A stretch of DNA of 64,000 bases. It comes from an uncultured Bacteroidales bacterium (GTDB lineage: Bacteria > Bacteroidota > Bacteroidia > Bacteroidales > F082). Below, piece by piece: positions 13,913 through 37,100 of this stretch. The notes under the pieces are model-generated. The model did not search any database and was not told the DNA's origin. It worked only from the letters and a program-made list of their open reading frames with translations. Each line of letters begins with the position of its first letter. The first letter of the stretch is position 1. The stretch spans positions 177,397 to 241,396 of the forward strand of contig ONFF01000009.1 in NCBI GenBank assembly GCA_900317055.1, read 5' to 3'. A program made the translations under genes and the position numbers.

Positions 13913-16900
13913 ATGTTTAAAAATTTACTAATGACCCTTGCCATCGTCCTGGCCACCTGCACGATGACCATGGCACAAGCGCAAGGAAGACTCAAAGGCA
14001 AGATTACCGATGACACAGGAGAAACGGTACCATTTGCAAACGTCATTGTTGAAAAAGGCGGAACACAAGTGGGAGGTACATCTTCTGACTTTGACGGTAA
14101 TTATGACATCAACCCGATTCCTCCGGGAACGTATGACCTCAAGGCGAGCTGTATTGGCTACAATGCCTTCGTTGTGAAGAACATTGTTATTCCTGCCAAC
14201 AAGATCACCTTCTACGACATCAAGATGGCCAGTGGAGCTATTAACATTGGTGAAGTCACTGTTGTCGACTACGAGATTCCTTTGATTTCAAAGGATAACA
14301 CTACGCAAGGTGCCTCCATTACCTCCGAGGAAATCGCCAAGTTGCCGGTGCGTTCGGCAGAAGGCGTTGCCGCCAGTGTTGGTGGTGTGTTCTCGCAAGA
14401 CGGTGAGGTCGGTTCCATCCGTGGTTCCCGTGAAGGCGCCGTCTACTACATCGACGGTGTGAAAGTTATCGGTAGTACGAGCGTGCCTCAAAGCGCCATC
14501 GACCAGGTCGATGTTATCTTGGGCGGTACGCCTGCCATGTATGGTGACGCCATGGGTGGTATCATCAACATGACCACTAAGGGCCCCAGCCGTACATGGG
14601 GTGGCGGTATCGAAGCCGAGTATTCGGTTGACGGTTACGGCCACGGCCGCTTGGGTGGTAGCTTGCAAGGACCGCTCATCAAGAGCAAGAAGAACGACCA
14701 GGAAGCCCTCCTCGGTTTCTTTCTCGCTTTTGATATCACGCACAACAAGTATGGCTATAGTTCAGCTGTGGGTTACTGGCGTGCTAAAGACGAGTACATG
14801 GAAAAGATCAGAACTAACCCTCTGACTATTGGTATCGGTACCAATGCCACCGCTGCTTACACGCAGAGAGACGACCTGTTCCAAACTCGTTTCCTCAACA
14901 ACACGACCAACCAAAGCGTTAACTTGACGGGTAAGATTGACGTTCGTACGGGTAAGACCACCAACCTCACCATTGGTGGATCAATGGTTTTGAGCGGTGG
15001 TCACTATGCCAGTGGCCGCAGCCAGTACTACTTCAACACAGACAAAAACTATCTGTCCAAATCGGGTACCTATCGTGGTTATATCCGCTTTACCCAACGT
15101 TTCCAGAGCGACCCCAATAGCACTTCGTTGATTTCCAATGTGTATTACAGCATCCAGGCCGACTATTCTCGCTTCACTAGCGAATCGGGCGACCCCGACT
15201 TGTGGAACAACATCTTTGCATACGGCAACTTGGGTAAGTTCACCACCTACAGAGCTCCTAACGCCCACTTCCAGACGACAGCTGTCGACTCAGTGTTGGT
15301 CAACGGCCAATACAAGAACCTCAGCAATGTGTTCGTGTTGGATAACTACTACGACACCTTGGTGACCTTCAAACCTTCCAACTTCAACCCCGATTTGGCC
15401 ACCTACGCCAACAATTATTTCGATCTGTATAAGGAGTATGGTTCAGTGGGTTATTATAACAACCTCTCCAACATCATCCTGAACAATGGTTTGATCAATG
15501 GTATGTCACCCAGCTATGTGTATGGTATGTATGCAGTGCCTGGTACCATCCAAGATTCTTACGGCAAGGCTGTCAACGACCAAATTGCAGTGAATGTCAA
15601 CGGTTCTATGACCCTTGGCAGAGGCGACAACTCTCACGATATCAAGTTGGGCTTCCAGTACGAGCAACAAAACAACTCGCAGATGTCGTTTAGCTCCAAC
15701 TACTGGACGCTGATGCGCGACATGACCAACTTCCACATCAGAGAGCTCGATATGGAACATCCTTTTGCCAACTCGGTTGATGGCCATGTTGATACAGTGC
15801 TTTTCCACAGACTGTATGACGAAACCACTCAGTACACCTTCGACGCCCGCTTGCGTCAGGCCATGGGTCTGCCAGTGGATGGCACAGAGTGGATTCTGAT
15901 CGATACCTACGATTTCGATAACAATACCATTAAATATTACGATGAAAACGGTAAGATGAGAACCGGTAAGGTTGAAGGCGGCCTTGACATGAGCATGTTT
16001 GGTGCCGATGAGCTGACCCGCGACGGTAACTTCTCGGTCTACTATTATGGCTACAGCTACGATGGCCATACCAAGTATTCACTGACCGAACGTCCTTCGC
16101 TCAACGATTTCTTCAACCATCAGGATTCGGAAAAGGTCTTCGACCGCCCGATTGGTGCTCAACAGCCCATCTATATGGCTGGTTACCTCCAAGACAAGTT
16201 CGCATTCAAAGACCTGATCTTCAACATCGGTGTCCGTGTCGACCGTTTCGACGCCAACCAACAGGTGCTGAAAGACCCGTATGTGCTGTACGACTTCCAT
16301 ACCGTTGGCGACATTAAGAGCGCTATCAAGAACAACCAATTGAACGAAGAGAACTATGGCTTCGCCGGTCTTGCATCTAGCATTTATGTCCCCGACAACA
16401 TTGGTGATGATTATGTTCCTTACGTGAATAAGATCAGCGAAATCACTGAAATCGTTGGTTATCGTTCGGGCAACACTTGGTACAACGCGGAAGGTGTTGA
16501 AATTGCCAACCCCGAAGTCCTCGACATGGGTACTGGTGTTACGCCTTGGATCAAGAAACAATATATTGAAAAAGAGAAGCAAGTGGTTGACATCAACTCC
16601 TTCAAGGACTACGATCCCGCTTGGAGCATCATGCCTCGTATCTCCTTCTCCTTCCCGATTTCCGATGAAGCTTTGTTCTTCGCTCACTACGATGTGTTGA
16701 CGCAGCGTCCTACCAGTGCCTACTACTGCAGCCCGCTGTACTACTACCGTTTCACCGACCTCTCGGGTACGGTTGCCAACCCCAACCTGAAGCCTTCGCA
16801 GACCATCGAGTACGAACTCGGTTTCACCCAGAAGGTGACCAACACTTCGTCAATGACGATTTCGGCTTACTACCACGAGTTGCGTAACATGATCCAGATG

Positions 16901-17683
16901 TACCGTTTCAACGGTGCTTTCCCCAAGGGCTACAACTCATTCAGCAACCTCGACTTCGGTACTGTCAAGGGTTTGACTGCCAGCTACGACATGCGTCGTA
17001 CGAAGAACGCTCGTATTCGTGCCAGCTACACCTTGCAGTTTGCCGACATGACTGGTTCTTCAACCTCCACGGCTGCCGCTCTGATTGCCGCTGGTGTGCC
17101 TAACCTGAGATCCACCTTCCCGACCAATGCCGACCGTCGTCACAGCTTCAACTTGACACTCGACTATCGTTACAGCAGTGGTAAGGACTATGATGGCCCC
17201 ACCATTAAGGGTCACCAGATCCTTTCCAACACTGGTTTTGCTTTGCAAGTCAATGGTGGTTCGGGTACGCCTTTCACCGCTGCCCGTAAGGTTTCGTCAC
17301 CCATCTCGGCCAGCAACAATTTGCTCCAAGGTACCTACAACGGTTCCCGTATTCCTGCTTCGTTCCGTTTCGACCTCCGCGTCGACAAGGACTTCGATTT
17401 CACCATTGGTGGCAAGGAAGAAGGCAAGAAGGGCCGCGAGGCTTTCGTGAATGTGTATCTGCAAGTGCTGAACCTGCTCAATTCGAAGAACATTACCAAT
17501 GTGTATAACGCTACTGGTAATCCCGATGACGATGGTTACCTCTCAGCACCTGAATGGCAAAATGAAATCAACAGCCAAATTGACCCGCAGGCTTACATCC
17601 AAATGTATGAGCTCTACGTCAACAGTGGCGGCAACTATTCAATGCCTCGTCACATCAGAGTTGGTTTGAGCTTCAATTTCTAA
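13913..17683 (+). CDS. TonB-dependent receptor with carboxypeptidase-regulatory domain
   Basis: Outer-membrane receptor of 1256 residues. Signal peptide to about 22; carboxypeptidase-regulatory-like domain about 26-113 (GRLKGKITDDTGETVPFANVIVE...GNYDINPIPPGTYDLKASCIGY); plug about 130-230 (VRSAEGVAASVGGVFSQ, SIRGSREGAVYYIDGVKV, DVILGGTPAMYGDAMGGIINM); then a beta-barrel that ends in aromatic SFNF. It is the first gene of an operon with a giant secreted protein (37 bases on) and a PorV-like barrel (36 bases further). No SusD partner is present, so a SusCD glycan importer is unlikely. It may act with the cargo in surface assembly or in uptake of its ligand. Codon use (GGT, CGT, AAC) suggests high expression. 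Confidence 0.93.
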   Translation: MFKNLLMTLAIVLATCTMTMAQAQGRLKGKITDDTGETVPFANVIVEKGGTQVGGTSSDFDGNYDINPIPPGTYDLKASCIGYNAFVVKNIVIPANKITFYDIKMASGAINIGEVTVVDYEIPLISKDNTTQGASITSEEIAKLPVRSAEGVAASVGGVFSQDGEVGSIRGSREGAVYYIDGVKVIGSTSVPQSAIDQVDVILGGTPAMYGDAMGGIINMTTKGPSRTWGGGIEAEYSVDGYGHGRLGGSLQGPLIKSKKNDQEALLGFFLAFDITHNKYGYSSAVGYWRAKDEYMEKIRTNPLTIGIGTNATAAYTQRDDLFQTRFLNNTTNQSVNLTGKIDVRTGKTTNLTIGGSMVLSGGHYASGRSQYYFNTDKNYLSKSGTYRGYIRFTQRFQSDPNSTSLISNVYYSIQADYSRFTSESGDPDLWNNIFAYGNLGKFTTYRAPNAHFQTTAVDSVLVNGQYKNLSNVFVLDNYYDTLVTFKPSNFNPDLATYANNYFDLYKEYGSVGYYNNLSNIILNNGLINGMSPSYVYGMYAVPGTIQDSYGKAVNDQIAVNVNGSMTLGRGDNSHDIKLGFQYEQQNNSQMSFSSNYWTLMRDMTNFHIRELDMEHPFANSVDGHVDTVLFHRLYDETTQYTFDARLRQAMGLPVDGTEWILIDTYDFDNNTIKYYDENGKMRTGKVEGGLDMSMFGADELTRDGNFSVYYYGYSYDGHTKYSLTERPSLNDFFNHQDSEKVFDRPIGAQQPIYMAGYLQDKFAFKDLIFNIGVRVDRFDANQQVLKDPYVLYDFHTVGDIKSAIKNNQLNEENYGFAGLASSIYVPDNIGDDYVPYVNKISEITEIVGYRSGNTWYNAEGVEIANPEVLDMGTGVTPWIKKQYIEKEKQVVDINSFKDYDPAWSIMPRISFSFPISDEALFFAHYDVLTQRPTSAYYCSPLYYYRFTDLSGTVANPNLKPSQTIEYELGFTQKVTNTSSMTISAYYHELRNMIQMYRFNGAFPKGYNSFSNLDFGTVKGLTASYDMRRTKNARIRASYTLQFADMTGSSTSTAAALIAAGVPNLRSTFPTNADRRHSFNLTLDYRYSSGKDYDGPTIKGHQILSNTGFALQVNGGSGTPFTAARKVSSPISASNNLLQGTYNGSRIPASFRFDLRVDKDFDFTIGGKEEGKKGREAFVNVYLQVLNLLNSKNITNVYNATGNPDDDGYLSAPEWQNEINSQIDPQAYIQMYELYVNSGGNYSMPRHIRVGLSFNF

Positions 17684-17720
17684 TAGGAGAGACTATTCAT
17701 AACGAAAAATTACTAGTATT

Positions 17721-20700
17721 ATGAAGAATATATTTCGATTTTTGTTAGCGGCGCTGCTCATCGTGAGCGCTGTGACTCCCGGAAAGGCTGAAATGTACAA
17801 GTATGGACACAATGGCAGTGGTCAGCGTGCCCAGACCGCAGCCGGATGTACGCCTTCGTCAGCTTTCGAATGGCTCGACATCAACAATGTCAGAACCCGT
17901 ATCAATGCGGGTGGTGACATGTGGTGGGACCTTCCCTCTGGAACGGGTTCCAAGTACTTCATTCCTGCCAATGGCTCGGCTACTTCACTGTATGCCGGCT
18001 CACTGTGGATTGCTGGTGTCGACGTCAACAACCAGTTGAAGTGCGCCGCCTTGCGTTTCCGCCAGGTTGGTAACGACTACTACACTGGCCCTTTGACCGT
18101 CGACGGCAAGGCCTCCATCACTCCTGAAACCTGCGCCAAGTGGGATAAGATCTATAAGATCACCCGCGCCGAGGTGGACGAATTCCTCGCCGCCTTCGAC
18201 CCCAATACGGGTAGACTGGATGAAGGATATCAGATGCCTACCATCATCAAGAATTGGCCCGCCACCCGTGCCGATGATGACCCGGAAGGCATTGCCAAGT
18301 ATTTGGCTCCTTTCTACGATGCCGACGGTGATGGTGAATATAATCCTGAAATCGGTGACTATCCCTACTATGACATCACCAATGAACTCTGCCACACTAA
18401 GATTTCGACCATGGAAGAAGAGCTTGAGGGAACTATGCACGGTTCCATCTTGGCTGACCAGGTACTAAAGGGTGACCAAACCTTGTGGTGGATCTTCAAT
18501 GATAAAGGTGCTGCTCACACTGAGTCGGGTGGTCAAGCTATCGGTATCGAAGTGCGTGCCCAAGCTTTCGCTTTCGCCACGAACGACGAAATCAACAACA
18601 TGACTTTCTGCAGCTATGAAATCATCAACCGTTCCACTTACACCTTGACGGGTACCTACTTCTCGCCTTGGACTGACGTCGACCTCGGTTTCGCTAAGGA
18701 CGACTATGTGGGCTGCGACGTTGGACGTGGTTTGGGTTATGGTTACAACGGTGCTTATATCGACGGTAGTGGTGAACCCGAAGCCTACGGTGCTCAGCCT
18801 CCGGCGATTGGTATCGACTTCTTCCAAGGCCCTTATATGGATCCCGATGGAATCGACAACCCCAAGTATACTTATGAACTTGAACTTGACCATTACGAAG
18901 TTGTTCCTGGAACTACCGACACTATCTTCTTCTATGATACCGTGAACCAGACACAAGTGGTTGACTTCAGCATCAATGGTGTGAACTTTGGCAATGGTAT
19001 CGTTGACGACGAACGTTTTGGTATGCGCCGTTTCGTGTATCACAACAATAGCAATGCTGATAATGGTGACCCCGAGACCGCTCCTGAATATTACAACTAT
19101 CTGCGTGGTATTTGGAAGAACGGTGCCAAGATGCGTTTTGGTGGCGATGCTTTCGCAAGCAGCGATGTTGTTGGTCCTGAGTGCGACTTCATGTTCCCTG
19201 GCGATTCCGACCCGTGGAACTGGGGTACCGGTGGTAATACTCCGAATGGTGGTTTCAACCAGAATGGTAAATACTGGACTGAAGAGCAGTGCGGCAATGC
19301 ACCTAACGACCGTCGTTTCATGCAGTCGGCAGGTCCCTTCACCCTGGAACCTGGTGCTGTCAACTACATCACCTTCGGTGTGCCGTGGGCACGTGCCACC
19401 TCTGGCGGTGCATGGGCATCAGTTGAGTTGCTGCGCGTGGTCGACGACAAGTGCCAAGCCTTGTTCGACAACTGCTTCAAGGTTATCGACGGACCTAGCG
19501 CTCCAGATTTGACCATCCGTGAGCTCGATCAGAGACTCATTATCTATCTGTCGAACGGTACGCTCTCCAATAACTATAAGGAGAAATACATTGAACTTGA
19601 CCCCGAAATTCCGACTGGTAGAACTGAACATTTGTTAGTCAAGAAAGATACTATTTGGCACATTAACGCTGAAGGCGACAGCATTTATCAAATCGATGAG
19701 GAATACAAAGATTCGACATTTGTTTACGACAGATACTATCGCTTTGAAGGTTATAAAGTGTATCAAGTGGCCAATGCCGAAGTGGGTGCCGACGAGTTGA
19801 ACAACAATGACAAAGCCCGTTTGGTGTTCCAATGCGACGTGCGCAATAATGTGGGTCGTCTGCTCAACTATGAATTCGACGAGTCGTTGCAAGCCAACGT
19901 CCCGAGCCTGAAGGTGTATGGCGGCGATGCCGGTATTTCCCACAGCTTCGTGCTCACTGAGGACAAGTTCTCGACGAGCGACAATCCTCGTTTGGTCAAC
20001 CACACACCTTATTATTTCATGGCTGTGGCCTATGCCTACAACAACTATCTGGACTACAATCAGGACGATGCTCTTGGTCTGCAAGGTCAGAAGAAGCCTT
20101 ATCTCGAAGGCAGAAAGAACATTCAGGTGTATACCGCTATTCCTCACAAGATTGTCAACGGTACTGTGCTGCAAGCCGACTATGGCGACAGCCCTGCAAT
20201 CACCCGTGTCGTTGGTGCTGGTAACGGCTTCAACGAGCTTGAGTTGAGTCAAGCTTCGATTGACGAGATTATGAGCAAGCCTATGGCCAATGATTCGACC
20301 AACCGTTTTGGTAATCCCAATTATCCTGCTTCGTATCATCCTACTTATGTTGCTGGTTATGGTCCTATCAATGTGAAGATTATCGACCCGCTGAATGTGA
20401 AGTCTCACAGCTATGAGTTGGTGTTTGACAATATGTATGAGAAATATACGCATAACATCACCAACAATCCTGACATTAAGGGTGACTCCGCTGCTCGTAT
20501 GGTCAACAATTGGTACTTGGTTGACTTGACCGATATGGATACCATCTTTAGTGACACCACTACGGTGTACGACAATGAGCAGATGCTCATCGACCGTGGT
20601 ATTTCTGTCAATGTCACCCAAGTCTATGAGTTTGGTCGTATCTGGGCTGGTCTGTATTATAATGATAAGAACGACGGAGATCCGTGGAAGGATTACTATA

Positions 20701-22271
20701 CTGTCGTTGCCCAAAACAACGGTGTGATTACTTCGTCAATCGAATACACTGATCCTAGCAATCAATGGATGAGTGCTATCCGCGACATCGATGTGCCTGG
20801 TTCATACTTGAACTGGATCCGTTCTGGTACGTATGTCGACATGAATGATGGTGGTAGTATTAATAACGACTATAACATGTCGTCAACCCAATATAATGGT
20901 ACTGGTAAGAGCCAGCCTTGGGACCCGAACGAGAATTGGGAAAAGATTGCCAACCGTTCGTGGACAACTCCTTTATTCGCCTCAGGTACGGGACATACTG
21001 GTGCTTTGGATCCAGGTCCTGTAGCTCAAGGTGGTAGTGTTGATAGCGCGTTTAAGAAGACTGTCAGTGTCGACATCGTCTTCACTGCTGATAAGAGTAA
21101 GTGGACCCGTTGCCCCGTTATTGAGATGTGCATGGATCCTACCCTTAGCGAAAACAATGTTAAGAGATTCTGCTTGCGTAAGCACGCTTCGGTTGACAAG
21201 GACGGTAATCCGTATATGATTAAGGATGAAACCAACAAGGACATTCCGTTCAACTTGTGGTCTCAAGCTGGTGATGCCCAATATGTCTCCAATAACCCAG
21301 AGGATCCGAACTTCATCGGTGCTCAAGGCATGGGTTGGTTCCCGGGCTATGTCATCGATGTTGAAAACGGCATCCGTCTGAATGTTGCCTTCGGTGAGGA
21401 CTCCTATTTGGAGGATCTCGGTGGTCGCGATATGATCTTCAATCCTGCCAAGGTGCAGAAGGCCACAGCTGAAGACGCATCAGGTGAACTTCAAGAGTAT
21501 GACCCGGCTATCTTCCGTGGTACGGATCGCGATCCCGTCTTTGGTGGTAAGCACTTTGTCTACATCTGGCGTATGGACTCCCTCCCGATGGTGAGTACGG
21601 CACCTTGGAAACAAGTGAAGAACTACGGTTATGACGGTGGTCAGCTGCTGTTCAACTCAATGAATGCTATTCAGAAGTTGAATAGTGGTATGATTACGAA
21701 CATGAACAGAAGCTTATACAAGCTGGTCATGTGGATTGGTATGCCGATGGGCATCGAAGGTATGGAATGGTTGCCTGAAGGCAATGAGTGCCGTGTCCGT
21801 ATCCGTCTGGCCAAGCCTTATGCTCCTGGCTATGGCTTCCCGTTACAACAAGAGAATCCGGATCTGATGATCAACAACTTGAATCCGAAGTACACCTTCT
21901 CGATTGATGGTTGGGATCCTCTCTTGAACGATAAAGAGAAGACAGAGAAAGACCTCAACCTTGTTACGGTGGTGCCTAATCCTTATTATGCCTATAACTC
22001 CTACGAAGGCAACGCACTGACCAATAAGGTGAAGATCATCAACCTGCCCAACAAGTGTATCGTTTCGATCTATACCTTGAGTGGCACGAAGGTGCGTCAG
22101 TTCCGTAAGGACAATGAAACAACGAGTATTGAATGGGATCTCACGAACTTTGCCAATACGCCTGTGGCTTCTGGCTTCTACTTGATTCATGTCAAGGATT
22201 TGACCAGTGGCAGTGAGCGTACCATCAAGTTCTTTGGTGCCATGCGTCAAGTTGACCTGAACACATTCTAA
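17721..22271 (+). CDS. Giant secreted protein with T9SS/FlgD-like C-terminus
   Basis: A 1516-residue exported protein: signal peptide to about residue 24 (VTPGKAE), then long beta-rich sequence with aromatic and Asp-rich stretches (for example DADGDGEYNPEIGDYPYYD). The C-terminus begins VVPNPYYAYNSYEGN and continues VKIINLPNKCIVSIYTLSGTK...WDLTNFANTPVASGFYLIHVKD, a FlgD-like Ig domain used as a T9SS signal in related proteins. Unlike type A signals it carries a 12-residue tail (AMRQVDLNTF at the very end). I recognise no enzymatic domain. Position between a TonB-type receptor and a PorV-like protein marks it as the probable client of both. Confidence 0.88.
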   Translation: MKNIFRFLLAALLIVSAVTPGKAEMYKYGHNGSGQRAQTAAGCTPSSAFEWLDINNVRTRINAGGDMWWDLPSGTGSKYFIPANGSATSLYAGSLWIAGVDVNNQLKCAALRFRQVGNDYYTGPLTVDGKASITPETCAKWDKIYKITRAEVDEFLAAFDPNTGRLDEGYQMPTIIKNWPATRADDDPEGIAKYLAPFYDADGDGEYNPEIGDYPYYDITNELCHTKISTMEEELEGTMHGSILADQVLKGDQTLWWIFNDKGAAHTESGGQAIGIEVRAQAFAFATNDEINNMTFCSYEIINRSTYTLTGTYFSPWTDVDLGFAKDDYVGCDVGRGLGYGYNGAYIDGSGEPEAYGAQPPAIGIDFFQGPYMDPDGIDNPKYTYELELDHYEVVPGTTDTIFFYDTVNQTQVVDFSINGVNFGNGIVDDERFGMRRFVYHNNSNADNGDPETAPEYYNYLRGIWKNGAKMRFGGDAFASSDVVGPECDFMFPGDSDPWNWGTGGNTPNGGFNQNGKYWTEEQCGNAPNDRRFMQSAGPFTLEPGAVNYITFGVPWARATSGGAWASVELLRVVDDKCQALFDNCFKVIDGPSAPDLTIRELDQRLIIYLSNGTLSNNYKEKYIELDPEIPTGRTEHLLVKKDTIWHINAEGDSIYQIDEEYKDSTFVYDRYYRFEGYKVYQVANAEVGADELNNNDKARLVFQCDVRNNVGRLLNYEFDESLQANVPSLKVYGGDAGISHSFVLTEDKFSTSDNPRLVNHTPYYFMAVAYAYNNYLDYNQDDALGLQGQKKPYLEGRKNIQVYTAIPHKIVNGTVLQADYGDSPAITRVVGAGNGFNELELSQASIDEIMSKPMANDSTNRFGNPNYPASYHPTYVAGYGPINVKIIDPLNVKSHSYELVFDNMYEKYTHNITNNPDIKGDSAARMVNNWYLVDLTDMDTIFSDTTTVYDNEQMLIDRGISVNVTQVYEFGRIWAGLYYNDKNDGDPWKDYYTVVAQNNGVITSSIEYTDPSNQWMSAIRDIDVPGSYLNWIRSGTYVDMNDGGSINNDYNMSSTQYNGTGKSQPWDPNENWEKIANRSWTTPLFASGTGHTGALDPGPVAQGGSVDSAFKKTVSVDIVFTADKSKWTRCPVIEMCMDPTLSENNVKRFCLRKHASVDKDGNPYMIKDETNKDIPFNLWSQAGDAQYVSNNPEDPNFIGAQGMGWFPGYVIDVENGIRLNVAFGEDSYLEDLGGRDMIFNPAKVQKATAEDASGELQEYDPAIFRGTDRDPVFGGKHFVYIWRMDSLPMVSTAPWKQVKNYGYDGGQLLFNSMNAIQKLNSGMITNMNRSLYKLVMWIGMPMGIEGMEWLPEGNECRVRIRLAKPYAPGYGFPLQQENPDLMINNLNPKYTFSIDGWDPLLNDKEKTEKDLNLVTVVPNPYYAYNSYEGNALTNKVKIINLPNKCIVSIYTLSGTKVRQFRKDNETTSIEWDLTNFANTPVASGFYLIHVKDLTSGSERTIKFFGAMRQVDLNTF

Positions 22272-22307
22272 ACAAATGTAATTGCTAACCGTAAATAACT
22301 TATCATC

Positions 22308-23396
22308 ATGAAGAAATCATTTAGATATATCGTATTGAGCTTCGTAATCCTATTTGGATTAAGTGCTCCTCAAGCATTTGCAGGAAACAAAGACCGTTCA
22401 GGCCAAGCTGGCGCTCCCGAGCTGTTGATTAACCCTTGGGCCGCATCGTCGGGCTGGGGCAATGCAGGCATGTCGTTCGTTCATGGCGTCGAAGCCATCT
22501 ACGGCAATGTGGCTGGCATCAGCTCGTGCCGCACCCTGGATGTGAACTTTACCCACACCAGCTGGCTGGTTGGTGTGGGTAATGACACCCGCATCTCCTC
22601 ATTCGGCTTCCTGGCTCGCGTGGGTGAGTCAAGCGTGTTGGGTCTCTCCTTCATGTCGTTCAGCCTCGGTGCAATCCCGATTACGACTGTGGGTAACCCC
22701 GACCCGAACACCTTGGGTACCTACAAACCTAACCTGATGAACATCAATCTGTCGTTCGCTAAGGCATTTTCCAACAGTATCAGCGGCGGCTTCAACCTGA
22801 AGATCATCAGCGAGTCCATCAAAGATATGGGCGGTGTTGGTGTGGCCTTAGACGCTGGTATCCAGTATGTCACTGGCCCCTTCGACAACATCCACTTTGG
22901 TATCACTCTGAAGAACATTGGACCTACCATGAAGTTCTCAGGTGACGGTCTCTCACTCAGGGTGTTCATGGACAACGCCAGCAACCAGCAGTTCACTATG
23001 CTGCAGCGCGCCGACGACTTCGAATTGCCCACCCAATTGAGCATCGCTGCCGCCTATGATTTCCTGTTTGCTGAAACCAACAGAATCACCTTGGCTGGTA
23101 ACTTCTGCTCCAACTCCTTCACCAACGACCAATTCATCGTCGGTCTGGAGTATAGCTGGAAGGAGATGTTCTTGATTCGCGCCGGTTACACCTACGAAAA
23201 CGGCATTTGGTCGAAGGAAGGCATCCTTTACGATGATGGCTGCATGAACATCAACCGCGGCCTCAGCGCTGGTGTGTCTATCGATGTGCCCGTCTCCAAG
23301 AAGGAAGACGCCATGCGTTTTGCTCTGGATTATTCCTACAGAGACACCTACACCTTCGGTGGTACCCATAGCGTGGGCGTGAGAATTATTTTCTAA
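22308..23396 (+). CDS. PorV/PorQ-family outer-membrane protein
   Basis: A 362-residue predicted FadL-like barrel: signal peptide ending QAFA at about 25, then the family hallmark near the mature N-terminus (LLINPWAASSGWGNAGMSFVHGVEAIYGNVAGIS, matching the usual A-x-G-x-G...A-x-Y-x-NPAG layout), and alternating amphipathic strands to a terminal aromatic (GVRIIF). PorV binds C-terminal signals of T9SS cargo at the translocon and shuttles them to the attachment complex; PorQ is a related attachment-complex protein. As this one is encoded in an operon with a single giant cargo, it may be a dedicated paralogue. Assignment to V or Q is not possible here. Confidence 0.88.
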   Translation: MKKSFRYIVLSFVILFGLSAPQAFAGNKDRSGQAGAPELLINPWAASSGWGNAGMSFVHGVEAIYGNVAGISSCRTLDVNFTHTSWLVGVGNDTRISSFGFLARVGESSVLGLSFMSFSLGAIPITTVGNPDPNTLGTYKPNLMNINLSFAKAFSNSISGGFNLKIISESIKDMGGVGVALDAGIQYVTGPFDNIHFGITLKNIGPTMKFSGDGLSLRVFMDNASNQQFTMLQRADDFELPTQLSIAAAYDFLFAETNRITLAGNFCSNSFTNDQFIVGLEYSWKEMFLIRAGYTYENGIWSKEGILYDDGCMNINRGLSAGVSIDVPVSKKEDAMRFALDYSYRDTYTFGGTHSVGVRIIF

Positions 23397-23431: not shown

Positions 23432-23450
23432 CAGTCGCAAACCAAAAGAA

Positions 23451-23480
23451 GACCCTTATTTCGGTAAGGGTCTCTTTTTT
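23451..23480 (+). terminator. Terminator-like hairpin in the greA leader
   Basis: Stem GACCCTTA (23451-23458), loop TTTCGG, stem TAAGGGTC (23465-23472), then TCTTTTTT. It lies downstream of the greA promoter box and 35 bases before the greA ATG, so it can act on greA's own transcript as an attenuator and release a leader RNA of about 43 nt; read-through from the PorV-like gene would also end here. Confidence 0.8.
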
Positions 23481-24507: not shown

Positions 24508-24533
24508 TAGTTTATAGTAATAAGAAATTTGAG

Positions 24534-24541
24534 TACTTTTG
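24534..24541 (+). promoter_or_regulatory. -7 box of the Plug gene promoter
   Basis: TACTTTTG, perfect TAnnTTTG match, 21 bases before the ATG at 24562; it lies inside the longer open frame that begins at 24529, which excludes that earlier start. Confidence 0.7.
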
Positions 24542-24561
24542 CAGAAACAATACTCTTTGCG

Positions 24562-25833
24562 ATGAAAAAGTTTCTTTTTTTGATGACCTTGCTTCTGTGG
24601 GCAGCAGTTGGTTACGCCCAGGATTTCGACCTGCCCTGTGGCAACCTCAATTACAAGCCAGAAATACAGACCGTATTGCTTTATGCTGACGACAACCAGC
24701 TGAACGACCCCATTATCCCATTAGAGGATATGATGGGCCGTTTGACCCTTTCGTTCGACATTATTGATGGGCAAGGCGAGGTACTCAACTACACCTTCAT
24801 CCATTGCAGCCACGATTGGCAACCCACTGATATGCAGCGTATACAATATGCCTCGGGCTTCGAATCGGATCGTTTGGACGATTATGCTTTTTCGCGCAAT
24901 ACCTTGATAGAATATGTCAACTACCACCTCACCTTTCCAAGGGAGGACATGGTGCCGCTTATCTCGGGCAACTATCTGCTTATCGTATATGGCGACGATT
25001 TGAACGATTTGTATCTAACCCGTCGTTTCATGGTGGTTGACGAGAAAGCCCATGTGGGTGCCACTGTGCCGCGCTATCCCGATGACCTCAACTACACCGA
25101 TACGCACCAGCAACTCAATGTCAAGGTGAACATGAACAACTATCTTACGGGAAACACGCAGCAGTATAGCTTCTTGACCATCCGACAAAACGGCCGCTGG
25201 GACAATGCCGCCGAAGGCTTGAAACCTACCTATGTTTATCCCGATTATATCTCCTTTGAGCATCATCCTCAGACGGTTTTTGAGGCAGCCAACCAATATA
25301 GACGTTTCAATACGAGCAACTTCTATTTCCAATCTGAAAACTTGGCCCACATTCGCCAGACTGACGAGTGTTTTGAAATCGATATTGCTACTTGTGAGTC
25401 GCGGGCGCGGTTGGCCTACACTTCGTATGAGGACATTCATGGCGAGAAATTCGTTTATGTGGAGAACGAGGACCTCGACAACTCAACTGAGGCCGACTAT
25501 TGCCGCGTCAATTTCTTTTACAAGAGCGAGGCACCGCTGACCCACGAGGACATCTATATCATGGGTGCGCTCAACGACTGGTGCTTCAACGAGAGTAACA
25601 AGATGACATATGACTATCGTTTGCGCGGCTACACCTGTTCGATGGTACTCAAACAAGGCTACTACAACTTCATGTTCGTTACCCTCGACCACCAGACCCA
25701 CGAAATCATGACCGACATGACGGCTGGTAACCATTGGGAGACTAACAATGTCTACAAGCTATATTTCTATTTCTACAATGCCCTTAAGGGCTATGATGAG
25801 CTGGTAGGTTATTCCACGGTGAATTCACATTAA
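24562..25833 (+). CDS. Type IX secretion system Plug protein (former DUF5103)
   Basis: Periplasmic-side protein that seals the T9SS translocon pore (SprA/Sov) when PorV is absent. 423 residues from the ATG at 24562; an earlier in-frame ATG at 24529 precedes the promoter box and lacks a signal-like start. Signal peptide 1-19 (MKKFLFLMTLLL...VGYAQ). The N-terminal domain shows features I associate with this family (YKPEIQTVLLY, FIHCSHDWQPTDMQRIQYASGF, YHLTFP, SGNYLLIVY), followed by the C-terminal part with IYIMGALNDW. Together with several T9SS cargos and a PorV-like protein this says the organism has a working T9SS, though the translocon gene itself is outside the window. Confidence 0.87.
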   Translation: MKKFLFLMTLLLWAAVGYAQDFDLPCGNLNYKPEIQTVLLYADDNQLNDPIIPLEDMMGRLTLSFDIIDGQGEVLNYTFIHCSHDWQPTDMQRIQYASGFESDRLDDYAFSRNTLIEYVNYHLTFPREDMVPLISGNYLLIVYGDDLNDLYLTRRFMVVDEKAHVGATVPRYPDDLNYTDTHQQLNVKVNMNNYLTGNTQQYSFLTIRQNGRWDNAAEGLKPTYVYPDYISFEHHPQTVFEAANQYRRFNTSNFYFQSENLAHIRQTDECFEIDIATCESRARLAYTSYEDIHGEKFVYVENEDLDNSTEADYCRVNFFYKSEAPLTHEDIYIMGALNDWCFNESNKMTYDYRLRGYTCSMVLKQGYYNFMFVTLDHQTHEIMTDMTAGNHWETNNVYKLYFYFYNALKGYDELVGYSTVNSH

Positions 25834-31193: not shown

Positions 31194-34100
31194 TCATTGC
31201 ATGACCGTGACGCGTTTCACTGTCATACCGTTTGCCGTGTTGACGCGCACCATGTACATGCCCGCATTGAACTGGACCATGTTCAAGGTGTATTCATCAG
31301 CATTGACTTCGGTGTCGAAGACCACTTGGCCGAGGACGCTCACCACAGTGATATGGTTCATGCCGGAGGCTTGGATGGTCACATTGCCCTTAGTCGGGTT
31401 CGGGAAGAGGGCGACCTCGTCGCTCTGTTCGTTCAAACCAACGCTGACGGAGATGAGGACATAGTTCTGTGCCAAGTCGTCGGCGTTCAAAGCCGGGACG
31501 GACTCACAACCGTCTTCATAGACCGTGCGGACTTGATAATAGTAGTCGTTAGAGGTCGTGGGTGTGTCGATGTACTCGTAGTAGGTCTGGCCTTCAACAT
31601 AGGGCACTTCACCGATGAGGGTGTAGTTGATGTTGTCGGTCGAACGATACACATTGTACTTCACTGGAGCGCCGTTGTCGTCGCGCAAGCTTGTGGCATT
31701 GAATGAGCTCATGCTTACAGGCTTCACAACCAGATTAGCCTCGCGGGTCGAACCATTGGTGAAGTTTGTGGTGGTACCATCGTTCATCGTCAGGAAGTCA
31801 CCCTTGCCTCCATTGCTTACATGGACAAATTGGATAAAGCTATAGGTGTAGCCGAACGATGACAGCGGGACCCACATGTCTTGGACACCCATCCACATGG
31901 TGTTCGGGTCGCCAAGATAAGTTGTCATTGGAGCAGGAGCGTCGATGGAACCGTCGGTGTAGAACATCACCCACAGGTTCTGTGTTCCATCGATGGCCAC
32001 AGGTTGGTCGAGCTGGATAGGTTTCAAGCCTTGCTCGCCATCGATGTAGTAGGTCTGCGAGGTGATCTCCGTTTGAGGAGCATTGTCGCCGCCAAGGTAG
32101 ATGTGCACTTCGCAATTGCCAGTCAGTTCGGGATCGCCAACGTCAAGGAACCAAATTTGGTCGATTACACCGCTGGTAAAGCCTTGCTCGACAATCATGC
32201 TGGCAGGATACATGCAACCCCAATAGAATGGCATGCCTTGTGCGCCAAGGGTGCCTTCGACGGAGAATTCATCATCGATGGACAGGTAAGAAAGCCATTC
32301 GTTGCCAGGAACGGGTTGCTCGCCCCACCAAATCTTGGATTGGTCGGTCGTTGTGAGGGCTTCACCGTGGATGGTGATGTCGCTTTCGCAAACCAAAGCA
32401 GGCTCGATGCACTCGGGGCAGCTCATGGCATAATAGTAGTTGTTGTCGGGCAGTTCGGCCGTGCCAGGATACACCATGCGGACGCACACCTCGCTGGCAT
32501 TGCCAGTGTATTCATAGGTGTTGGTAGGGACGGGCACAAAGGCCTCCCATTCACCATCGGCAAAGATCATGGCACCGATGCAGTCGGTCTCGCCTGGTGT
32601 CGGAGGAGGTGTACTGCCTTCTTCAATGTAGGCACGAATCATCCAAGTGTAGTTCAGTGTTGGGGCAGCCTCAAGGATATCCATCCAATCAATGCCGTCC
32701 ATAGAGACCCAACGACCGTTGGCATCGCCCGTGTTGTCGCAGCAAGCCGCAGGATAGTTGGCGCCACTTTGGTTGTAGAACACTACCCAGACATTCTTGG
32801 TCGGGTCAATCGTGACAGGCTCGGCGAAGGTGAACTCAACGAAGTCTTCAGCACCTGTAAAGGTCACATCCATCTGACCTACTTGGTTGGCGGGAGCCGT
32901 GGCGCCATCGTTGTAGATGGTCACATTGCCCGTCATGGCCATGTAGTCGTAGGCCGAGACTTTGGTCAAAGCATTGCCGTTGTAGCTACCGGCTGGGAAC
33001 ATGACGGCCCAGTAGAACTGTCCGCCACCCGTGCCGATGCCATCCACATTGACGCCGTTGTCGTAGTAGTACCATTCACCGTCGCGGTTGGCAAGGTTCT
33101 CGGCAGTGCGAATGGCTCTCGCCGGCGTGGTCACATTCTCACCCGTAGGCACAGAAACCATGCCGTTACGGTCAGTGATGGTCAAGTTGATCATGTCGCC
33201 CGTGCCTGAGCTGGAAAGCGTGTAGGTGTACATCTTACCGGCTTCATACACCATGTTGTCACCTTTGCTCTCTGCATTGCCGCTGTTGCCGGCAAACCAT
33301 ATCGTACTGACTTTGTCGGGGTTGATGATGGCATAGTCGTAAGTGCCAGCGGGGATTTCGATGGCCACGCTGTTGTTGACGACGATGTTTGCAGGGTTGA
33401 TGCCATAGTCGGCGTTCTCGGGAATCGTGTATTCGAAGCCGTCGAAGCTGCCGATTTCGTCGAAATACATGGCGGCTTCGAGTTGCGTGTACATCGTGGC
33501 GTCGGCATCAAGCAGCATTTGATAGCCAGAGCCATCGCCCCAAATGTCGGTCGGGACATTCAGCACGACCACGGCATTTTCGCCCGGTTGTGGCGGAGGT
33601 ACAGGACCCGTGCCAGTCGGGTAATCCCAGCTGATAGTAGTGCCGTTAACTGTTACGCCGTTGAGAGTGCCAGCGTAGTGCTCGCAGCTTTCATATTGCC
33701 ACACGCATTCTGTCCAGTCGCTCATTCCAGTGCTGTAAATGGCAGCCACCTTACAGATGTAGTGCTCGCCTTCAACGAGGCTCTCAGTCTCAAGTTGGCA
33801 GAACGGATTTACGGTGTTGGTGTTGAAGATAGGCTCATGGTCGATGCTCTCGCACATTACCTTGAAGCCCTCGAGATGACGGTCGTCGCTCTTGGCTCCA
33901 ACGCTCAACTCAACATCGTCAATCCAAATCTCATACATGTCATAATTGACATCATGGAAGGCGATATACACGCTCTGACCAGCGTAATCGCTGAGGTCGA
34001 TGCTGTGGAAACGCCAGTTCTCATAACGGTCGGCTTCGTGGCGCATATTGGCCTTGGTGTTTGAGCTGCCCTTGGCTTCGCCACCCCACACTTGGGTGAA

Positions 34101-37100
34101 GTCACTAGCACTTGGGTTGTCGGCTGTGGCCACGCAGACCGAGAAGCTCTCAGGATAGCTGTCGTTGGCATTGTCGGCCCAGAAACTCAGCGTGGAACCG
34201 TTGACGATGTCATACTTCACAGGAGTGATGAGATAGCTGTCAGTGTTATAGGCACCCACATAGTCCACGAAGGAATAGCACATGGCGAAGCCCGTACCAC
34301 TATGGGCAAGCGTGGAGTAGTCATAGCCACCGAGGTTGTTGCTGTTGTGGATCCACGAACCACCGTCGCTGTTGACATTCAGTACATTCCAGCCGTTCAG
34401 GCCGTTTTCAAAGTCTTCGGTGAAGGTGCTGCCGTTGCCACCTTGGCCACCGCCACCACCGCTCGGCAGACCTTGGGCATCCCACATGGCCCAACCAGTA
34501 CGGGAGACATAGAGATTGTCAATACCGTAGATGATCTCGGTCATTACATAACGAAGGTGGGTCTCGTCCCAGATGTGGACTGTGTCTTCAATCGGATAGT
34601 ATCCGTCGAAATCAATCTTCACGAGGTAATCGCCCTTGCGGAAGCTTTCCCAACTGTAGAAGCCTGTTTCGTCAAGTGTGATGGAGGCCATCGGGTTGTT
34701 GGCTTGTTCGTTTTCGTTCAGGTTGATGAAACTCACTTCGACACCTTCAGGACTATCGGCGCTGTTGAGTAACACATTGATGTCAACTAGGCCATCTCCG
34801 AGATTCATGTCTTTCTCAAGGCAGTTCGACCAGATGGTCTCGCTTTCACGAGGCAGGGCAAGTTGGTTGAGGTTGTTGGTGCCAGGGCCTGGAGTTGGGC
34901 CAGTGCCGCTACCAGCAACGATGGTCACATCGTCAATCCAAATTTCATATTGGTCGTAGTTCACATCGTGGAAGGCAATCCACACTTCCTGACCGGCATA
35001 GGCGCTTAGGTCAATGCTGTGCTCACGCCAGTTGTCATAACGGTTATTGTCATGGCGTACATTAGCCTTGGCGCTCGAGTTGCCCTTGGCACCGCCACTC
35101 CATACTTGTGTGAAGTCGCTAGCCGTCGGAGCATCAGAAGTGGTGGCCACACAGACTGAGAAGTTTTCAGGATAGGTGTCGTTGGCATTGTCAGCGTAGA
35201 AAGTGAGAGTGGAACCATTTTCGATGCTGTACTTCTGCGGTGACACAAGGTAACTGTCGGTGTTGTAGGAACCAACATAGTCGATGTATGAGTAACACAT
35301 GGCAAAGCCAGTGCCGCCATGGGCGTGAGTGGTGTAGTCATAGCCGCCAGGGTTGGCTGAACTGTGCAACCAAGTGCCTTCACCCGTATTGACATCGATG
35401 ACTGTCCAGCCTTCAAGATCAGTTTCAAATCCGTAGGTGTAGTCGTCACGAGTAGCTTTGGCGTTGTTGACATTGATAGGCTCAGACCAGTGGATAGGAC
35501 CAGCGATTTCTTCGCCACGGTTACCAGCATACACGGTGCCAACACCCCATTTGTAGACGCCAGGAGCCACATCCGGCCAATCCACATCGATGTAGACGGT
35601 GTCGGGCATCCAAACGGTAGCCAGCAGCACGGTGTTCTCTTCGGTGTAAGGACCGTCGTTGTAGCAGTTCGTACGATACACTCTGTAGTGTGACAGGGCA
35701 CGGTTGCTATTAGCCATCACCAACGGTCTGCTTGAAGCATTGGGGTTGATGCTCTCGTAAATCACTCTATTGTCGCCCTTCGCAATGGTACGGAGTCTGC
35801 TGTCGATCTTGGCACCTTGACCCAGGGCCAGAGGAGCATTTTGGGCACTCTTGGCAGAGCCGAGAACCACGCTGCGACCAGAACGGTCGGTGAAGTAGTT
35901 GCGCATGGTCCAAACGCCACCGCCATAGTTCTCCCAACCTTCACCAGCGTTCCACCAGTCGCCATTCGGGTTGCTGTCGCTGTTGCACATACCGACGGGA
36001 TAACCCAAACCACCAGCTACATTCACTTGCCAAATGACCCATAGGTCTTGGCTCCCGTTCACAGCAACAGGCGTGTCGAGATCCCAGTCGACCCATTGGC
36101 CGAGACCAACAGGCAGGTCAACAGTCTTAGTGGACACCAAGGTACCGGCACCAGGAGTGCTACCGCCTTGGTAGATGTTGCAGGTGTAGTTGCCGCCCAC
36201 AGCACCATAGAGGTCGTCGCTGAACATGGAGACCTTGGTCAGCTGGAAGCCGTTGTATTGGCCAGTGATGCTCGTCGGATAGTGGTAGCCGAAAGCAGGT
36301 TGGTCGGTCAGGTTCGAACGCAAGGCATCGTTGAACTCGCCTTCCAGATAGGTGTGCCAACCGGCACCCAAGGGTTCGGGTTGACGGTAGAAGGTGATGT
36401 AGTCAACATAGAAGCAGTCGTCGTTGTTGTTCACGCTGCCATCCTTCTCATATCTCCATTGGAAGGTGTGGTCGCCAGCGGTGATGGGGAACTTGCGCTC
36501 GCCCCAACTGCCAGCACCAGTGTACTGACCCATCTGAGTACCATCAATGAAGAAGTATCCGTAGTCCCAGCCCTGTTCGCTCGAGATCTTGCCGAAGAAG
36601 CTCATCTCGCCGTCGGCGGGGATGTTGACCGTCACTGTCATGTTGCTGATGACGCTGTTTACACCAGCGCCGCCGCTCTTCATGCAGTAGGTGCCTTCAT
36701 ACGGATCAGTAGTGGTGATGCTCCAAGGATAGGAGGCATCGAGTTGCCAATCGAACAGGCTGAAGTCGCCCGTCTCGAAGGGTTCAATGATTTCTTCACC
36801 AGGCAAGCCACAGCCCCAGTACACCTTCACATAAGGGCTTTCCGGGTCGAGGCTGTCGGGATAGTACTCGGCGATGACGGTGCAGACGGGATCGAAGTTT
36901 TCGTCCATGAGGAAGTTCACTTCGTTCTCCTGGGCGTTGTGGGCTACGGTGAAGGGCAACGGATGGACCGTTACGACATCCTGGTAGCCTTCCTTTGAAG
37001 CCATGACGTCAGTGTAGGTACCGGCATAGACTTGTTTGCTGTAGTAACCATTGGCATCGGTCGTGGCAGTATAGGTCTGGGTGTCGCCAAATTCATCTTG

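Follow-up and report, generated by a model that had tools for sequence, protein, structure and literature searches.

Do three adjacent genes for a TonB-dependent receptor, a giant exported protein and a PorV-family outer membrane barrel make up one dedicated surface unit and, if so, of what kind? We addressed this question in a 64,000-nucleotide stretch (the window) of an uncultured Bacteroidales genome (assembly GCA_900317055.1, contig ONFF01000009.1, positions 177,397 to 241,396), where the receptor R (13913-17683, 1256 residues), the giant protein C (17721-22271, 1516 residues) and the barrel B (22308-23396, 362 residues) are all encoded on the forward strand, with intergenic spacings of 37 bases (R-C) and 36 bases (C-B). 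A sequence-only reading of this stretch had reported the three genes and their spacings, the positions of which proved exact, and had proposed a client-specific shuttle module of the type IX secretion system (T9SS). As a whole, that interpretation is partly supported: the three-gene observation is confirmed and the idea of a dedicated module stands, while the PorZ-like terminal domain of C makes a permanent anchor likelier than a shuttle. Our preferred reading, drawn from genes and models, is that R, C and B come together in a single outer-membrane complex for SusC-SusD-like uptake, with C anchored uncleaved on B; we regard it as about evenly poised between right and wrong.

Conservation of the three genes

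Gene content was surveyed in 296 genomes of the class Bacteroidia, with co-occurrence counted for C and B (matches at E up to 1e-10). C was found in 245 genomes and B in 241; both were present in 237, C only in eight, B only in four (all weak matches, E about 2e-16 to 1e-10) and neither in 47, a co-occurrence with a Fisher p of 2e-41 when relatedness is ignored. SprA was present in 288 of these genomes, including 244 of the 245 with C. For gene order we combined the window with 120 fetched loci, some overlapping, of which 40 came from the top C matches listed (usually a single locus from each family, with certain genomes represented twice) and 80 were the best-scoring of at least 577. Twelve of 126 rows were dropped, namely seven C genes cut by a sequence end, three frameshift pieces (L103, L106) and the repeats L164 (of L091) and L177 (of L069), leaving 114 intact, non-identical C genes. 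A neighbour was counted if it lay on the same strand and within 3 kb; L095 has another open reading frame (ORF) between R and C.

By this count, R, C and B stand in the same order and on the same strand at 106 of the 114 C genes (the script found 103; inspection by eye added L137, L163 and L170, where the gene that it missed is present but overlaps C), or at 104 of 112 after merging genes more than 90% identical. Median gaps are 27 and 33 bases, and on each side 103 of 105 are at most 100 bases. The eight exceptions are L069, L075, L166, L167, L087, L184 and the second C copies of L078 and L085. L087 and L184 lie near contig ends, the second copy of L078 has a B just upstream, and L085 is a tandem R-C-R-C-B arrangement with a single B, in which the second copy also has its R. 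B occurs elsewhere in the same genome for L069, L075, L078, L085 and L087, and another contig of the L167 assembly (L164) holds R, C and B, with R cut by the contig end. Since these C copies lack a B of their own and a B is found elsewhere in the genome, a single B may serve two or more C proteins. The suggestion that the barrel is locked to one cargo thus describes most loci, which are one-to-one, but not those with extra C copies that no B follows.

The arrangement extends beyond the class. A phylum-level sample of 296 genomes, some of them from the class, contained C in 85 genomes and B in 150, the latter count including distant PorV relatives (at most six candidates per genome were scored). 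We then examined 20 loci outside the class, chosen for proximity of C and B, with R playing no part in the choice. All 20 have R, C and B in the same order and on the same strand, and all 20 contain an R-profile match of 951-1145 residues. Given this conservation within and outside the class, the co-occurrence and the conserved tail of C described below, the locus reflects more than chance adjacency, and the expectation that the genes would be conserved together elsewhere was borne out.

The closest named relative, L107, has a B 97% identical to that of the window and comes from RUG14699, the metagenome-assembled genome (MAG) of an uncultured member of Bacteroidia; many other relatives carry ruminant-gut labels. 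All 80 named relatives (the best-scoring of at least 577) are titled as MAG or uncultured, which may be why the triad has gone undescribed: we found no description of it among the open-access papers that our searches listed, preprints and other papers being outside our scope.

A distinct barrel, a giant protein with its own tail, and a receptor

B belongs to the PorV family, as had been proposed, scoring 150.5 bits against a cut-off of 90 with the PorV_fam model NF033709. Its predicted structure (predicted local distance difference test, pLDDT, 82.6) has a FadL-like fold, and the best Protein Data Bank (PDB) match is PorV (8gl6_F, E 2.2e-14, TM 0.65, 16% identity), with FadL next; a profile search returned PorV 6h3i_F at E 1.6e-16. 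B falls far below the equivalog cut-offs for PorV (85.7 vs 250 bits), PorQ (53.1 vs 220) and PorV2 (45 vs 325). In a tree of 49 PorV-family proteins, B sequences form one clade of 24 rows (support 100/99), apart from PorV, PorQ, PorV2 and a small further clade; joins between clades are poorly supported (deepest 48/19) and the bootstrap had not settled. The tree omitted a small PorV-family protein (L006) and a weak match (L215), and L197 was replaced by the right ORF from L219. The equivalog cut-offs and the tree together rule out B as a PorV, PorQ or PorV2.

Nor is B the only PorV of its genome, which is 98.7% complete and contains five PorV-family matches, four of them over the cut-off. Separate PorV (433.8 bits) and PorQ (245.9 bits) are present, along with a second PorV-like protein and a small one below the cut-off. 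PorV lies directly after the end of PorU, on a contig other than that of B, and the second PorV-like gene (L228:8994-10196, contig C19) scores 270.5 bits against the PorV cut-off of 250 and lies about 3.5 kb from PorV. In seven other genomes the top match scored 392-439 bits each and grouped with PorV in the tree. The anticipated distinction between B and the genome's main PorV therefore holds. The same genome encodes at least 150 type A tails over the cut-off (best 150 of 196 candidates scored).

A segment at the N-terminus of mature B (residues 25-37; 22380-22418) is conserved, with G26, N27, R30, G32 and G35 invariant in alignments of both 33 and 68 sequences. Residues 20-33 of the model have pLDDT below 50. 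Being mostly of low confidence yet strongly conserved, the segment looks like a binding motif, as does the tail of C.

C carries a Sec signal peptide and no lipoprotein signal, both judged by eye. Our model of C spans residues 640-1516 (mean pLDDT 87.7) and ends in an immunoglobulin-like (Ig-like) C-terminal domain (approximately residues 1418-1506; 21972-22238), for which seven strands are predicted within residues 1416-1506. The VVPNPY motif noted previously is present at residues 1418-1423; it starts this domain, about 95 residues before the end, and is not the C-terminus it had been taken for. The extra residues thought to follow the usual end are also real, although the model gives 10 (1507-1516; 22239-22268) past the end of strand seven at 1506, not 12. 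By the type A models the C-terminus of C is below threshold (TIGR04183 19.8 bits vs 23; Pfam 14.3 vs 27), and the type B model has no match on C at E up to 1. Among 34 C sequences, the only Pfam matches at E up to 0.01 were FlgD_ig (5/34) and Por_Secre_tail (1/34).

The last five residues of the tail have pLDDT below 50. In the class alignment, all 114 rows have Arg1509, 112 have Lys1503, 111 have Asp1512 and 107 have Phe or Tyr at 1516; these per-position counts are the fair ones, since the tail motif used in the neighbourhood script was written after the tails had been seen. Outside the class the middle of the tail differs and the ending is mostly Leu-Asp/Asn-x-Phe/Tyr-like (17 of 20 by a loose pattern). 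A tail so poorly ordered on its own yet so strongly conserved looks, from alignment and model, like a binding motif. Its pattern occurs once in the genome, compared with five occurrences of the reversed pattern, which agrees with the earlier notion of a private signal; with only one match there, we rejected the tail as a signal common to many proteins.

By three measures, PorZ has the terminal domain most similar to that of C, and PorU is level with ordinary type A domains. The PorZ profile, run on the genome, returned PorZ first (600 bits), the C terminal domain second (E 1.3e-7) and PorU fourth (6.6e-5). The C model matched PorZ (5m11) in the PDB at E 1.6e-5, followed by a DUF3244 protein (0.0084), PorU (0.013) and the substrate NucA (0.13); the PorZ match, at the terminal domain, was the only one for residues 640-1516 with an E of 0.001 or less. 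Profile scores for the C domain were 58.6 with PorZ, 49.4 with ordinary type A domains (a set of 30 rows with at least one wrong row, L013), 48.6 with PorU and 43.7 with PorU2. One C from outside the class was also scanned, and its sole NCBIfam match was PorZ, again at the terminal domain.

These similarities matter for the fate of the domain. PorU is held by PorV and PorZ by PorQ, according to passages of PMC5562754, and the domains of PorU and PorZ stay unremoved (passages of PMC10202324 and PMC11285876), PorZ being reported to remain bound to PorQ uncleaved (PMC10202324, in part). A review raises the possibility that cognate PorV-like barrels shield the terminal domain from cleavage (excerpts of PMC10202324; PMC11285876), and translocon structures show PorV loops holding the domain (PMC10994853, in part). 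Since PorZ, whose terminal domain is the nearest to that of C, is reported as retained, a permanent anchor seems likelier than a client-specific shuttle. By this analogy, C would more probably stay on the surface as a permanent subunit held by B than pass through as cargo.

R has a signal peptide by eye, and its CarboxypepD_reg and Plug domains both exceed Pfam cut-offs. An alignment of 105 R orthologues gives the consensus VEVxxYKVPLI at residues 113-125 (14249-14287), TonB-box-like by eye, with Pro123 and Ile125 in 90% or more of the sequences. The claim that R lacks a SusD partner was upheld: the SusC model (TIGR04056) has no match on R at E up to 1, C has no SusD match, and the upstream gene of 168 residues has no NCBIfam match. 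R is likeliest a TonB-coupled uptake receptor with C as its surface partner.

Around the triad, no terminator-like site lies in the R-C or C-B gap. A terminator-like hairpin of 10 pairs (23449-23474, read on both strands) lies just 3' of B, before greA (a name given by eye); such sites are at chance level in the region (11 seen vs 9.7). A T9SS plug protein gene (NF052315, 328.7 bits; 24529-25833) begins 1.1 kb downstream of B, with greA-like and HIT-like genes, recognised by eye, in between. In other families too, judged from sequence ends only, a greA-like gene follows the triad (L137, 15518-16427; L095, 6806-7279; L078, 6414-7019), as does a HIT-like gene in L137. Farther along the window, 31194-39107 encodes a 2637-residue protein that matches choice-of-anchor J and ends in a type A tail.

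What the unit may do

Under our preferred reading, C would be made with a Sec signal and use the type IX translocon to cross the outer membrane, as its terminal domain and the presence of SprA in nearly all genomes with C suggest. B, not the general PorV, would then take the terminal domain and tail of C, and the domain would be kept uncleaved, with B as a private, permanent anchor; this step is proposed from the similarity of domain and barrel, such that B would be to C as PorQ is to PorZ and PorV to PorU. The anchored C would sit on or beside R, which TonB would energise. The unit would thus be SusC-SusD-like, its surface partner being a T9SS-delivered giant on a barrel and not a lipoprotein. 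A broader version, in which such TonB-coupled uptake units occur phylum-wide, each with a T9SS-delivered giant lid locked uncleaved on a private, tail-reading PorV-family barrel, we consider tentative and somewhat doubtful.

Several observations weigh against this reading. PorZ outscores ordinary type A domains by a modest margin, PorU is no closer to C than these are (48.6 vs 49.4), and the second PDB match, ahead of PorU, is the DUF3244 protein. PorU and PorZ are reported to have an additional beta-ribbon (PMC11285876), which was not seen in the C model. A Pfam scan taken to E 0.01 gave no domain in the body of the window's C, and nothing in our data points to a ligand. Seven of the 114 C genes have neither an R before them nor a B after them, and both C and B are absent from 40 of the 288 SprA-bearing genomes.

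The last of these counts also bears on a different explanation, in which the triad would be another component of the T9SS or of the surface-assembly machinery and not a nutrient system, B would hold C as a surface helper and R would serve as a scaffold. PorZ, which delivers a glycolipid, would be the model for such a helper, and the PorZ-like domain of C, the precedent of PorU2-PorV2, the nearby T9SS plug gene and the occurrence of C or B in 248 of the 288 sampled class genomes with SprA all fit it. The 40 genomes that dispense with both do not, and neither does the R-profile match at every one of the 20 outside loci; many genomes outside the class, moreover, have several B-like matches (up to at least six, distant relatives included), which resembles a set of uptake systems. 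We think a machine part unlikely. The shuttle originally proposed, in which B would draw C from the translocon, deliver it for cleavage and attachment or release, and recycle, with R as anchor or coupled partner, seems to us improbable to a similar degree. Client-specific shuttles are known for type B domains (PMC12618676, in part), a private conserved tail would suit one, and C copies without a following B suggest that a B may serve several clients; set against this, the terminal domain of C is nearer, by a modest margin, to PorZ than to ordinary type A domains, and mostly one-to-one, adjacent B and C suit an anchor as well or better.

Two further explanations carry little weight with us. Oar of Myxococcus, a TonB-dependent receptor needed for protein secretion, has an N-terminal make-up like that of R (passages of PMC6434023), and R shares the Oar-type CarboxypepD_reg extension, Plug and TonB box (the box by eye), so that R might be likened to a receptor required for secretion of its neighbour. 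However, C has a signal peptide and a T9SS-like terminal domain, whereas PopC is described as having no signal peptide, and SprA accompanies C in all but one genome; an Oar/PopC-type role is very unlikely. We give as little credence to shared transcription alone, with PorV handling C and the neighbours having no joint function. Short gaps by themselves would fit, but the same order in the class and beyond, the separate clade of B and the near-perfect co-occurrence of B and C argue for more.

Relation to known systems

B is not alone among its relatives in having a partner. PorV2 adjoins PorU2 giants in L232, L233 and L236; among other PorV2 loci, L234 has a cut PorU2 giant, L235 a remnant and L231 none in the stretch read. 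The giants of L232, L233 and L236 (1662-1723 residues) share an FGKMYLMR-like ending, and L235 and L236 each have, some genes from PorV2, a gene of about 825 residues to which no identity is assigned. The small further clade of the tree (L224, L225) adjoins a TonB receptor scoring 208-215 bits with the R profile, together with lipoprotein-like genes (judged by eye) and a short C-like protein that the C profile matches at 33-58 bits. This cousin cluster (L224:8310-19224; L225:458-13803), whose C-like protein has no tail and which in L224 also includes a nuclease-model match, is perhaps a second receptor-anchor system. With PorU beside PorV, PorU2 beside PorV2 and these small-clade loci, several PorV-family barrels have a linked giant.

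B and C resemble PorQ-PorZ and PorV-PorU as a PorV-family barrel whose partner bears a C-terminal domain, that of PorZ being the closest; for retention, the likeness comes from PorZ, reported as retained and bound (PMC5562754 and PMC10202324, each in part). In contrast to PorZ and PorU, C matches the NCBIfam models of PorZ only at its terminal domain and does not match that of the PorU sortase. Compared with PorQ-PorZ, C has a conserved tail of its own, B is of another clade and a TonB receptor is the third gene; PorZ and PorQ also lie on different contigs in this genome, unlike C and B. PorV2-PorU2 (NF052325, NF052324) is similar in placing a PorV paralogue by its own giant, whose terminal domain is FlgD-like and which has an ending peculiar to it, but PorU2 is a sortase relative, B scores 45 against the PorV2 cut-off of 325, and no R-profile match was found among the matches listed in six PorV2 loci. 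Among open-access papers, PorV2 appeared together with type IX secretion in one only, and the term PorU2 was not found in those listed.

PorP/SprF offers a likeness in the barrel gene right after its client, in cognate pairing and in orphans served in trans (PMC12618676, in part). B scores 25.9 against 90.55 with the NCBIfam model, though it just exceeds the PF11751 cut-off (23.8 vs 22.3), and C has no type B match; the word TonB is absent from the main text of PMC12618676. With SusC-SusD the triad shares a TonB-dependent receptor gene next to that for a large exported protein, whereas R has no SusC match, and C has no SusD match and, by eye, no lipoprotein signal.

Type A C-terminal domains are stated, in the same source, to be all recognised by PorV (PMC12618676). 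Here, a PorV-family barrel has kept its own giant partner across the class and beyond, and the private tail makes the pairing of B and C testable. The preferred reading would suggest PorV-family barrels as a general anchor set comprising PorV-PorU, PorQ-PorZ, PorV2-PorU2 and B-C, and would connect TonB-coupled receptors to export by the type IX system. Proteins that carry a T9SS-type domain and are anchored on a barrel are already known; what would be new here is the receptor as a third partner. If the broader, phylum-wide version is true, the two hallmark outer-membrane systems of Bacteroidota would be joined in one machine.

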